Shown piece after piece: positions 4,661 to 43,886 of a stretch of DNA of 64,000 bases; the first letter of the stretch is position 1; every line of letters begins with the position of its first letter. Below the pieces are notes generated by a model. The model saw only the letters and a program-made list of their open reading frames with translations, did not search any database and had not been told where the DNA came from. The DNA is from Darksidea phi. Its lineage: Eukaryota; Ascomycota; Dothideomycetes; Pleosporales; Lentitheciaceae. A program made the position numbers and the translations under genes. The stretch covers positions 1-64,000 of the forward strand of contig JASJFT010000110.1 of assembly GCA_030770425.1 (NCBI GenBank). Direction: 5' to 3'.

Positions 4661-4985
4661 TGCATGGGTGGATGGCGTTGTGAATATGACAAGAGATAAA
4701 AGGAGCGTTGGTTTGTTGGTTTTGGTATGCATAGCGATGGCGTTTAGCGGGATATACCTTGGCTTTTGGTGGGAATAGAAGAGAGATGGCAACAAGGATG
4801 GTTTGGTGGCGAACAACAGTGGAATTATCCACTCTTACGAAGCGCAGAATAGCCAAAGTCGTCGCCGAGAGCCTTGCGGCATAACTATACCTATCCTTGC
4901 CTCTTCAATCCCGCGTCTGTCTACGCCGAACGGATCCAAAACAGTTCTCGTCCTGTCAAACTCCCGGCTACCCAAGGAACCCTCC

Positions 4986-40375: not shown

Positions 40376-42978
40376 TTAACTATAAATCCTTTCTGCCCAT
40401 TTTGGCCTTAATGCGCCCTTCTTGCTCTTCGAGGTGCCGCTTGGCCGAGGCATAGCTTCACTGCCGGCTGGATTCACAATATCGGACGTAGCATTCTCTC
40501 CAAGCTCTGCTCCCCCGTTAGCTAATGCCCCGCCCTGACCTCTTCTTTCTTCTTCTTCTGCTTCTTGTTGCATGGCTGTAAAGTTGTTGCGACACGTAAC
40601 CGTTGTCGGATGCTGAGAACCGAGCTTCTCGCTGTAGCCGTTGCATGCTCTCTGGTAAAGCGGCAACGCCTCCTCGTACCGCCTACGCTTATGCAAAAGA
40701 TAAGCTAGATTGTTCACGCTCGCTAGCGTATCGGGGTGCTGTACACCCAGCTCCTTCTCCCTCCCTTCCAGCGCTCGCCGGTTCAGCGCCTCCGCCTCCG
40801 AGTACTTCCCCTGATTTTGTAGCACCCCCGCCAGGTTGCTCACGCTCGTCAGCGTATGGGGATGCTGTACACCCAGCTCCTTCTCGTACCCTTCCAGCGC
40901 TCGCCGGTTCAGCGCCTCCGCCTCCGAGTACTTCCCCTGACTTTGCAGCACCCCCGCTAAGTTGTTCACGCTCGTCAGCGTATTGGGGTGCTGCACACCC
41001 AGCTCCTTCTCCCTCCCTTCCAGCGCTCGCCGGTTCAGCGCCTCCGCCTCCGAGTACTTCCCCTGATTTTGTAGTACCCCCGCTAAGTTGTTCACGCTCG
41101 CTAGCGTATCGGGGTGCTGTACACCCAGCTCCTTCTCCCTCCCTTCCAGCGCTCGCCGGTTTAGCGCCTCCGCCTCCGAGTACTTCCCCTGATTTTGTAG
41201 TACCCCCGCTAAGTTGTTCACGCTCGCTAGCGTATCGGGGTGCTGTACACCCAGCTCCTTCTCCCTCCCTTCTATCGCTCGCCGGTCCAGTGTCTCCGCC
41301 TCCGAGTACTTCCCCCGATTCCACAGTACACTCGCCAGCCAGAACATACTTGTTAACGTAGAAAGATGCTGTTCACCGAGCTTCTTCTCGCTCTCGTGTA
41401 CCGCCCGCCTGCTCAACCTCTCGGCATCATGATACTTTGCTCGCGCCGTCTCTATGTACCGTCCAGCGCGGTTGAGCACTTGAACCCACTCCTTTACCGA
41501 GTTTCTACTAGATAACTCCATATCGTATACTGGTTCGACATGCGGTAGCAGCACCCGGCACTTCTCCCAGTTCTCGAACTGTCCAGTTGGGAACTCTTGT
41601 GACATTAGCCCTACAAACCTTTCCTTCCACCTCTCCACATCGCTGAATGACGACAGCCAAACTTGGGTGCAGAACTTTACTAGAGCGTGCATTTCGTACA
41701 CGTCAGTCTCAGCTGTCGCGGTAATAAGCGAGTATGCCCGCAAAGTGTCAAAGTCTTCGTCGAAGGCGTCGTTAGCCTCGTCTTCGCTGCTCGGATCCAC
41801 CGCACTCCTCCTATACCTTCGAAGAACTGACTCTGGGATTCCTTGTGGGTTGAAGAAGCTTATAAGCGACAGTAGGTCTGCAGCGAAGGGCCTCTCTTGC
41901 CGGATACGATCAAACGATATCTGCCATGTTGTCACCACCGAGTTCGATGCGCTCTCATCTCGACGCAAGTCGCCTGCGTCCCGGTTTAGGAGATTTTCTC
42001 TCTTCTTGTCGTTTGCGCGAAACTCCTTCAGGTAGCCCAGTATCGTCATGCGGGCTCGCCGGTTGATATAGGCAGCGGCCTGCGCGATCGCAAGAGGCAT
42101 GTAATCGAGCGCACGTAGTAGCTCCACCGCGCCTTCTTCTGTCGATGTCTCGTGCAGCTTGTTTCGAAGAAGCTGGAGGCCTTGGCTTTCGTCCATAGCA
42201 AGAACCTCCTTGATGTTCTTGTACCCTCCTGTCAGCCTGGCTGCGACATCCTTGTTCCGAGACGTGATCAGGATCGATCCGTTACGGCTTTGGGGGAGGT
42301 ACGCCGCCAGCGATGTGGACGAGCCGCCTGATGCCTCCTCTCGCTTACGGCCTTGCGATGGGAAGAAGGTCTCGACGTCGTCGACGTTATCTAGAACCAT
42401 CGTCCATTGCCCATTTATCTCGTCGCACAGCCAGTTGCGGACCAGCCGCAGCACGTCGGCCTTCGGATTCTCTCGCCCTGGCAGCTCAAGCCTGTCTGCT
42501 ATGTCTCTATACGCTTCTTCGAACCGGGCCCGGGTGCTAGCGTACACCCAGAAGACGAACGTTCGCGGCGAAGTATCGCGGACATCGTGGCAGTATCGAA
42601 TGGCTATTTGCGACTTCCTGCCCCGTCATCAGCATGATAGCCGCAAAGAGTGGTAGTGGACAGACCCTACGCCGCCAAGGCCGACGAGCGCCGCACGCGC
42701 GCCGGGTCCTACGCACTTGTCACGGACCCATGCTAAGATGTCGGGGCGATCGACAAAGTCAGGGTCCGGGGCGAACGGGACGGTAGAGAAGGGCTCGCGT
42801 TTGCGGGTGGATCCGTCTGTGAGCCGGTGTTAGCTTCGAGCCGCCGGCTGCCGGTCAGCGCAATACCGGTACCTTGACCCTGCGGATAGCCGATGTGGAA
42901 GTTGGTCGTTCCGCCGGCGGCGGTATAAGTGCCGGGTATAACGACATGGCCGTCAACGGGTGCCTGGAAGCGGCTCAT
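40376..42978 (-). CDS. NOD-like receptor: N-terminal amyloid-type motif, NB-ARC, TPR repeats
   Basis: STAND-class intracellular receptor of the fungal NLR type. Exons 42978-42873, 42816-42666 and 42617-40376 give 832 aa (introns 56 and 48 nt; the second splits Walker A). Residues 1-35 hold a short Gly-rich motif, PVDGHVVIPGTYTAAG then GTTNFHIGYPQ, of the class used for amyloid templating to an effector. NB-ARC: LVGLGGVGKSQIAIRY (P-loop, about 80-95), WTMVLDNVDD (Walker B), GSILITSRNKDVAARL, LDYMPLAIAQAAAYI (GLPL-like) and YEMHALVKF (MHD-like). The C-terminus has about six kinesin-light-chain-type TPR units of 42 residues (LGVQHPDTLASVNNLAGVLQ and NQGKYSEAEALNRRALEG), nearly identical. A divergent gene at 43174-43886 carries the matching motif. 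Confidence 0.9.
40700..41330 (-). repeat. 126-bp tandem repeat array encoding TPR units
   Basis: Five copies spaced exactly 126 bp (anchor GCTGTACACCCAGCTCC-like words near 40738, 40864, 40990, 41116 and 41242), flanked by more diverged units. The copies differ by a few bases, some changing codons for D/N/H and A/T at two positions. Near-identity at DNA level suggests recent expansion or gene conversion, as in other fungal NLR repeat domains. Confidence 0.9.
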
Positions 42979-43173
42979 CTTCTGCCCTCGGTACGAGGCT
43001 CACATGTTCTGCGTATGAGGATGATGGACGCGAGAAAGTCGCAGGCTGTTGGACAGGGTGAGCCGCGCTTGGCAGCCGCTCAGCCGCACTCAACCCATCA
43101 CATTTCTTGTCCAATGCATCGTTTGTTTCGACGGACTTGAGGTGCTGGCTTCTTCATTTTTACCCCTTCTATA
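42979..43173. promoter_or_regulatory. Short divergent promoter between NLR and partner gene
   Basis: 195 bp separates the two divergent ATGs, consistent with co-regulation of an NLR and its effector. No specific element recognised. Confidence 0.5.
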
Positions 43174-43886
43174 ATGTCTCTCTTCAGGAAGCTGACGCGT
43201 TCATCGGTGGCCCAAGCCGAAGTTTCTGCTGGACTTGACATGGGTGCTGACAACGATCTGTAGGCAGCTGCTAAGGGTTCTGGACGATGCTAACGACAGT
43301 ACAGATATACGACTGACGGACCAACGGGAATCAGAGTTGTCGCTGACCTATCGGATGCAGTCGTCGAGTGAGGACATTCCAATCTAGCAAATCGCTAAAT
43401 ATTTTCCGGGGCACGAACCAAGAAATATTAGGAAACCTACAGCCTGGTTCTTCGGACCTGCAGAGGACCGAAGAAGATTTTCAGCATATGCTATTACGCG
43501 ATGACATTAAGCTCAAGATATACTGTTTCTACGAGGCTCTCAAGATGAATGACACGGTTGGCAAGATTGTGGAAAGAGAGTCTGCCATACTGCCTGCATA
43601 CGATAACTGCAGCATCAACGCCGATCATCGAGACATGACAAAATTCACTGGAAGAGCAGATGCAAGATACGGTCAGGTTCGAGGAGTATTAGAAAGGTGG
43701 ATCCAGGAGTATGAAACTAAGGGATCGGATTTCGACGAACCACCTGGAGCACCAAAAGGCGAGGACAGTGGCGGCCGAGGGACTTCATACAACGGCCCTG
43801 TGTTCAACGGTCCCATTTCTGGTCGATATGTGATTCCTGGAGCTCATACTACCGCCGGTACAGTGAACTTCAATTTTCCTGGCTGA
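43174..43886 (+). pseudogene. Truncated SesB-like alpha/beta-hydrolase effector with C-terminal amyloid-type motif
   Basis: Exons 43174-43259 and 43305-43371 encode an N-terminus typical of fungal NLR-linked serine esterases (MSLFRKL, then DGPTGIRVVADLSDAVVE) and stop at TGA 43369-43371. A second open frame, 43368-43886, resumes near the end of the same domain (NQEILGNLQPGSSDLQ, IKLKIYCFYEAL, ESAILPAYDNCSINADHRDM then TKFTG) and finishes with a linker and PISGRYVIPGAHTTAG plus TVNFNF. The middle, with the HGL oxyanion and GxSxG nucleophile region expected of the family, is absent. The junction 43368-43387 starts GTGAGG and ends ATCTAG, and its removal would restore frame, but 20 nt is too short for an intron. 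Likely a deletion between two introns. Whether the 3' part is expressed alone is unknown. Confidence 0.75.

Follow-up and report, generated by a model that had tools for sequence, protein, structure and literature searches.

A candidate amyloid-signalling motif shared by an NLR and a broken SesB-like hydrolase gene in the fungus Darksidea phi

The window analysed here, a 64,000-nucleotide stretch of Darksidea phi DNA (contig JASJFT010000110.1 of assembly GCA_030770425.1, referred to here as C14:1-64000; the genome comprises 51.4 Mb in 477 contigs), contains a NOD-like receptor (NLR) gene and, divergent from it, what is left of a gene for a SesB-like hydrolase, and the two predicted proteins share a short terminal segment. 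The NLR gene occupies 40376..42978 on the minus strand (ATG 42978, stop 40376), as read from open frames and GT-AG sites. It comprises exon 1 (42978-42873), exon 2 (42816-42666) and exon 3 (42617-40376), separated by a first intron that runs up to 42817 from one of three alternative first bases (42878, 42872 or 42866) and a second intron (42665-42618) that splits the P-loop codons between GGVG and KSQ. The model is intact and encodes 832 aa with the middle splice choice and two GT-AG introns, splicing here and below being predicted from the genome rather than taken from transcripts. Pfam domains NB-ARC (E 4.3e-7), DUF7779 (E 9.8e-9) and TPR_10 (E 4.9e-74) give the protein the layout of a fungal NLR, that is, NB-ARC or NACHT followed by ANK, TPR, WD or HEAT repeats. 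The NB-ARC domain (PF00931; residues 78-249) is encoded at 42128..42691 on the minus strand and is interrupted by the second intron, and the TPRs, near-identical to one another, are encoded by a tandem array at 40710..41320 on the same strand (4.8 copies of a 126-bp period, 92% matches). The repeat domains of many fungal NLRs are described as highly conserved internally, a feature that is enriched in these receptors and accompanied by fast diversification (PMC4986451).

The divergent ATGs of the two genes (42978 and 43174) are separated by a spacer of 195 bp (42979..43173), as stated in a preliminary description of this stretch, which had been made by a model from the sequence alone and proposed that the NLR N-terminus and the partner C-terminus carry a common amyloid-signalling motif of a sigma-like or related kind. 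Smith-Waterman alignment places the shared segment at these two ends, in residues 4-28 of the NLR (42895..42969, minus strand) and at the C-terminus of the partner frame (43803..43877, plus strand). The match is real, with a score of 66 that was reached by none of 20,000 end-segment shuffles (best 56) and none of 1,000 shuffles of the whole proteins (best 61). Allowing for one gap, 13 residues are identical among 24 aligned, rather than the 15 or so of 23 first counted. The segment is also the best local match between the whole NLR and the whole partner, and a pattern derived from the motif family described below occurs at only these two places in the six frames of the 64-kb window. Since 8 of the 12 identical core residues are encoded by different codons in the two genes, the likeness is held at the protein level and does not reflect a recent DNA duplication.

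Whereas the NLR half of the proposed pair stands as an intact gene, the partner frame holds only the C-terminal part of a hydrolase and is broken, so the earlier reader had seen a real motif on a broken gene. A 5' remnant of the partner (43174..43371, plus strand), consisting of exon-1-like and exon-2-like pieces of a SesB-like hydrolase start, stops at an apparent deletion junction near 43360-43372. Its exon-1-like piece matches the start of a paralogous hydrolase on contig C223 (score 41, 0 of 2,000 shuffles) and, weakly, that of another on C241 (score 28, 39 of 2,000 shuffles); the exon-2-like piece is weak against both (score 28; 33 and 25 of 2,000 shuffles, respectively). The partner open frame (43347..43886, plus strand), which comprises the hydrolase C-terminal part and the motif, corresponds in tblastn to residues 193-370 of the C241 hydrolase model of 371 aa (E 3e-30, 37% identity) and has no Pfam match; its first in-frame ATG is codon 48, and the frame opened by the upstream ATG (43174) runs for 29 codons before it is stopped. 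The FVHGLTG, AHSLGG and GTPHLG part, including the nucleophile region, is missing: the landmark-to-landmark distance is 582 bp at C241 and 728 bp at C223, whereas in the window both sides join at the junction, which leaves the partner 0.58-0.73 kb shorter than its paralogues. Judged from the sequence, the window partner is a SesB-like alpha/beta-hydrolase remnant and not an intact gene, and the absence of the missing segment may be a fixed deletion, a polymorphism or an assembly error. As the partner lacks the catalytic core, the window pair probably no longer signals through it; the NLR and the motif-bearing partner frame are both still open.

The same arrangement recurs elsewhere in the genome. 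Paralogues of the NLR were found on C223 (two), C241 and C238, with 72-77% identity over the linker and the start of the NB-ARC domain, and at C223:394.7-396.7 kb and C241:15.5-18.2 kb an NLR gene and a hydrolase gene diverge from each other and both encode the motif, with ATG-to-ATG spacings of 199 bp and 1063 bp, respectively. There are therefore three loci (window, C223 and C241) at which adjacent genes carry the shared motif at the NLR N-terminus and in the effector C-terminal region. An intact effector domain adjoins the NLR in the spliced model of C241 and not in the window: the C241 hydrolase model (371 aa) is stop-free over four proposed introns, matches DUF676 (E 1.4e-8) and Abhydrolase_6 (E 1.4e-6) and contains AHSLGG, so that this predicted protein has the alpha/beta-hydrolase fold, DUF676-type signature and nucleophile motif expected of a SesB-like effector. 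In the C223 hydrolase, the third intron as read here is without a canonical donor. A truncated hydrolase end with the motif was also found at C223:676 kb, and a decayed NLR of the family at C223:104.8 kb. The earlier proposal of an amyloid-signalling pair arrangement is supported in part, by the common segment, which recurs at two paralogous loci and in two foreign NLRs; the window partner, which has no catalytic core, probably no longer serves as an effector.

A second type of carrier was found on C467, where a HET-domain protein of 395 aa (PF06985, E 6.4e-14) bears the motif in residues 276-299. Inspection by eye of the frames of at least 130 aa around this gene showed no NLR; the right side there consists of N from position 4831 of locus L051. 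On C238 (L045 4813-5072), 258 bp separate a motif-bearing NLR from a divergent gene with a HET domain, which matches only residues 1-78 of the C467 protein, and this locus is possibly a broken HET/NLR pair. The genome has 56 HET-type places at E<=1e-10, C467 included, and the motif pattern was found behind none of 12 of the other 55, within short stretches totalling 4,552 bases. Three HET places (L071-L073) run into a P-loop, the HET domain being, by eye, apparently fused in cis to an NLR. When the genome was queried with the motif only, 7 places were returned at E<=10, all of them in NLR, hydrolase or HET genes; this query, in which only the top candidates were scored, did not return the NLRs of C223 and C241 and is therefore not exhaustive. 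The possibility raised in the preliminary description that the segment is a common linker of many unrelated genes, or a repeat, is not supported by these 7 of 7 places, the two occurrences of the pattern in the window and the protein-level match.

In public proteins, the N-terminus of the NLR gave 2 matches among 28 candidates. One is an NLR homologue from Monosporascus sp. GIB2 (Xylariales; 66% over an alignment of 775 positions), and the other a partial protein from Byssothecium circinans (Pleosporales). Both foreign NLRs start with the motif, which is identical to that of the window NLR at 19/26 and 20/26 positions; compared with each other, they are identical at 24/26 motif positions and 7/15 positions of the following linker, and with the NLRs of C241 and C223 they agree at 9-11 residues of the motif.

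The motif is about 25 residues long. Its 11 instances contain 4.8% D/E/K/R as against 27% in the whole NLR, 17% Gly as against 7%, and 12% aromatics as against 8%, and the best-kept columns are V-I, G, G and T. This low charge and richness in Gly and aromatics are consistent with, though not proof of, amyloid, and in a weak estimate of aggregation propensity the instances are level with the PP and sigma controls. A comparison of profile A2 with solved structures gave 12 weak matches (best E 0.34).

The known families were compared using controls from the same genome, which contains two PP pairs, a HeLo-type protein with an NLR at C54:37.8-38.6 kb and a PNP_UDP-type protein with an NLR at C223:599-600.7 kb (all members match Pfam Ses_B), as well as two SesA-type proteins with near-identical sigma motifs at C423:306.8-309.5 kb (L059-L061), the protein names being given from reading of the sequences. 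Close to the latter genes, one frame reads as a SesB-like hydrolase and another as a NACHT-type protein. Five PP/sigma peptides were taken as controls, PP from C54 and C223:600 kb and sigma from C423. Membership of the sigma or PP family was rejected, as NACHT_sigma (PF17106) and Ses_B (PF17046), the latter described as a misnamed PP profile (PMC12261475), match 0/11 motif instances and 5/5 controls, with an in-genome sigma control matching NACHT_sigma at E 7.7e-9. The sigma-like assignment of the preliminary description is accordingly not supported, and the lack of a profile match, which it had named as evidence against its proposal, was what the search found for these known families; one instance has an unrelated Pfam match (PF08789, E 0.044), and the HET-s family is not among the Pfam matches of the instances. 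The sigma A sub-motif (GxGxQF) is present in 0/10 instances and 2/2 controls, and the PP core NxGxQxG in 0/10 instances and 4/4 controls. The strict sigma B form GGTQN is absent from 10/10 instances and also from 2/2 controls, which makes this test uninformative, and the strict published PP pattern likewise matches neither the instances nor 4 controls, so that only the looser cores count. In the profile comparison with PP the probability was 0.8%, and 53 of 54 pairwise comparisons with PP and sigma sequences had at least 40 of 500 shuffles reaching the score, the exception being the decayed NLR at C223:104.8 kb (2 of 500). The one resemblance to sigma is a loose GGT-N element, found in 5/10 instances and 2/2 sigma controls, which recalls the sigma B sub-motif. 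For the HRAM register (G19; hydrophobics at 5, 8, 10, 16 and 18), which was scored without an HRAM control, at most 3/5 positions agree in the 10 instances, and these are matched by at least 343 of 1,000 shuffles; the PUASM FxGxGxQxxGxGxF and GDQNxVS patterns, scored without a positive control, occur in 0/10 instances.

Two further sets of loci were noted in the same genome. C302:1-8000 (L047) and C309:1-8000 (L048) are very similar to each other and decayed, with a lower GC of 0.45, and hold remnants of an NLR and a SesB-like hydrolase; the decay looks like that caused by repeat-induced point mutation. The segment common to these remnants is a different one (hydrolase end ...QGSGNVGRDINHRN, NLR start ...QGSDNAGHDIYNG; score 36, 2 of 1,000 shuffles), and the hydrolase tail scores 36 against the C54 PP motif (1 of 1,000) and 31 against the motif of the window partner (10 of 1,000). 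This segment is possibly a further motif family or a relative of PP. On C39 (L053) and C5 (L054), related NLR frames lie directly behind a frame holding MAEALAVVGIVANI..., which is apparently a SesA/NACHT_N-like effector in cis, named from reading of the sequence only.

The relation between receptors and effectors was assessed over 28 motif comparisons (7 NLRs, the two foreign ones included, by 4 effectors; these are not independent); in 20 of them, no more than 1 of 2,000 shuffles equalled or exceeded the score. Between the window effector and those of C223 and C241, the motif is identical at 17/27 and 13/27 positions and the preceding linker at 9/31 and 8/31, while the adjoining domain (49/105 and 45/105) is about equal to the motif in conservation. 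The lower motif conservation among other members and the scores of adjacent pairs, both given below, fit a single loose code, a reshuffling of partners or shifts in specificity better than they fit tightly insulated pairs. Within-cluster similarity of motifs has been reported for sigma (PMC3321046), unlike at the present loci.

These genes form a real, small family in which an NB-ARC/TPR receptor and a separate effector carry a common segment, and it is proposed, with somewhat better than even confidence, that this segment acts as an amyloid-signalling motif. The architecture equals that of described amyloid pairs (PMC3321046, PMC9815663), and an amyloid fold, templating and cell death are inferred. 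In such a system, recognition of a ligand by the TPRs would lead to oligomerisation through NB-ARC, the clustered N-terminal segments of the NLR would fold into a cross-beta (beta-arch) template, and the matching segment of the effector would be converted onto it, by which the attached enzyme (a SesB-like hydrolase or, in one gene, a HET/TIR-like domain) would be activated and the cell killed or arrested. This nucleation and templating model is regarded as the most likely one by analogy with the STAND/effector model (PMC3321046) and HET-S/NWD2 (PMC10197012). With its own hydrolase broken, the window NLR would need effectors encoded elsewhere: it may signal to the C241 or C223 hydrolase or the C467 HET protein, or else the locus is decaying. 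Motif co-occurrence between non-adjacent genes is reported for established families (PMC9815663). More speculatively, and with rather low confidence, the motif may define an amyloid channel separate from PP and sigma that feeds two executors of different chemistry, a SesB-like hydrolase and a HET (TIR-like) domain, with the window partner as a killer-dead carrier; a carrier of this kind, like HET-s, is possible because the motif of the partner frame is still open.

Several results weigh against the amyloid-signalling proposal. The Pfam profiles of the known PP and sigma motifs match no instance, and in the aggregation estimate, which was of little use, the motif mean is attained by 10% of the windows of the NLR itself. 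The window NLR's own partner is broken, and in the C467 HET protein 96 residues follow the motif. Among public proteins, the tails of the C241 hydrolase and C467 HET protein gave 0/10 and 0/5 candidates at E<=10, respectively, the former search having used the diverged C241 variant and not the tail of the window partner. The decayed C223:104.8 kb NLR does not match any of the three hydrolases, the score being reached by 235-882 of 2,000 shuffles. The adjacent hydrolase is the best-scoring partner for 0/3 NLRs, that is, co-evolution within pairs was sought at these loci and not found. Between the C223 and C241 effectors, 17/27 motif positions are identical, compared with 24/42 in the linker and 90/109 in the domain. 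The window NLR motif is identical to those of the C241 and C223 NLRs at only 7/26 and 8/26 positions, a smaller share than in the aligned linker (7/15 and 8/14) or at the start of NB-ARC (72/90 and 74/90); these low motif identities indicate two NLR motif sub-types, one window-like and one of C223 and C241.

Three other explanations were considered. The segment could be a shared docking peptide through which the NLR, for instance by beta-augmentation, recruits its effector and no amyloid forms; a common segment and gene pairing require interaction only, and the best-kept V-I, G, G and T columns could belong to a folded interface. This is rather unlikely, as the segment is short, charge-poor and rich in Gly and aromatics, and its placement at the receptor N-terminus and effector C-terminus is that of amyloid signalling motifs (PMC12261475). 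That the motif is a highly diverged sigma (or PP) and no separate family at all would agree with the loose GGT-N element and with the SesB-like effectors known with both sigma and PP (PMC3321046), and is improbable given the profile, core-pattern, profile-comparison and pairwise results above. Decay of the window locus, which would leave the pair there without present function, is a serious possibility that falls somewhat short of an even chance and is compatible with the other readings, as these concern the family. The loss of 0.58-0.73 kb with the nucleophile region speaks for it, as do the further decayed or truncated loci of the family (C223:104.8 kb, C223:676 kb, C302 and C309), whereas the NLR remains a full open gene that has kept its motif, the motif-bearing partner frame is open, and this reading applies to the locus in the window and not to C241.

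Under the amyloid-signalling proposal, the pairs at other loci of this genome point to a new relay in which an amyloid fold passes from protein to protein and turns on cell-death proteins. If a family lacking a Gln-centred core joins those already known, the range of sequences able to carry an immune amyloid signal becomes wider, and the presence of three motif families in one genome would make insulation between channels directly testable. If the reading is true, a motif-bearing HET-domain protein would link amyloid control to one of the major domain classes of fungal incompatibility, and the C467 protein would be, in the literature searched, the first HET executor controlled in trans via an amyloid motif in common with its receptor; no HET/STAND pair emerged from the screen in PMC3321046. 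The window partner could then be the hydrolase counterpart of HET-s.

Few fungal families of amyloid signalling motifs are known, namely HET-s/HRAM, sigma, PP, PUASM 1-2 and the provisional GDQN, and these share no clear sequence (PMC12261475). No earlier description of the present motif was found in the available text, logos and supplements apart, of PMC9815663, PMC3321046, PMC5485727, PMC12258605 and PMC12261475, nor likewise in PMC12881547, PMC4518210, PMC4986451, PMC10197012 and PMC8086366. One case to compare is NLR34 (PMC9815663), an unassigned 28-position N-terminal amyloid-like motif of 29 ascomycete NLRs for which no effector is given; by its description, with which alone it was compared, it could be the present motif. 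PUASM and GDQN (PMC9815663, PMC12261475) are similar in being recent additional fungal families found via receptor/effector pairing, but the PUASM effector is PNP_UDP, whereas the effectors here are a hydrolase and HET. With HET-S/NWD2 of Podospora anserina (HRAM; PMC4518210, PMC10197012), the present loci have in common adjacent genes and, as proposed, the receptor-to-effector template logic, and HET-s of that species is a killer-dead carrier of its motif; they differ in a single rather than double effector motif and in a hydrolase or HET domain in place of HeLo. The PP system (PNT1, HELLP and SBP of Chaetomium globosum; PMC5485727) also combines a lipase-type effector in trans with one short motif near the NLR N-terminus, but here there is no NxGxQxG core or PF17046 match, and the genome has separate PP pairs at C54 and C223:600 kb. 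Sigma (het-eN, sesA and sesB of Nectria haematococca; PMC3321046, PMC5485727) resembles the present system in its NLR N-terminal and effector C-terminal segments, SesB-like hydrolase effector and adjacent genes, and in the GGT-N element of some instances, whereas GxGxQF, strict GGTQN and a NACHT_sigma match are lacking here, the receptors are of the NB-ARC/TPR type, and a HET-domain protein also carries the motif. From these sequence comparisons, the motif is probably a new family within a known type of NLR/effector system.

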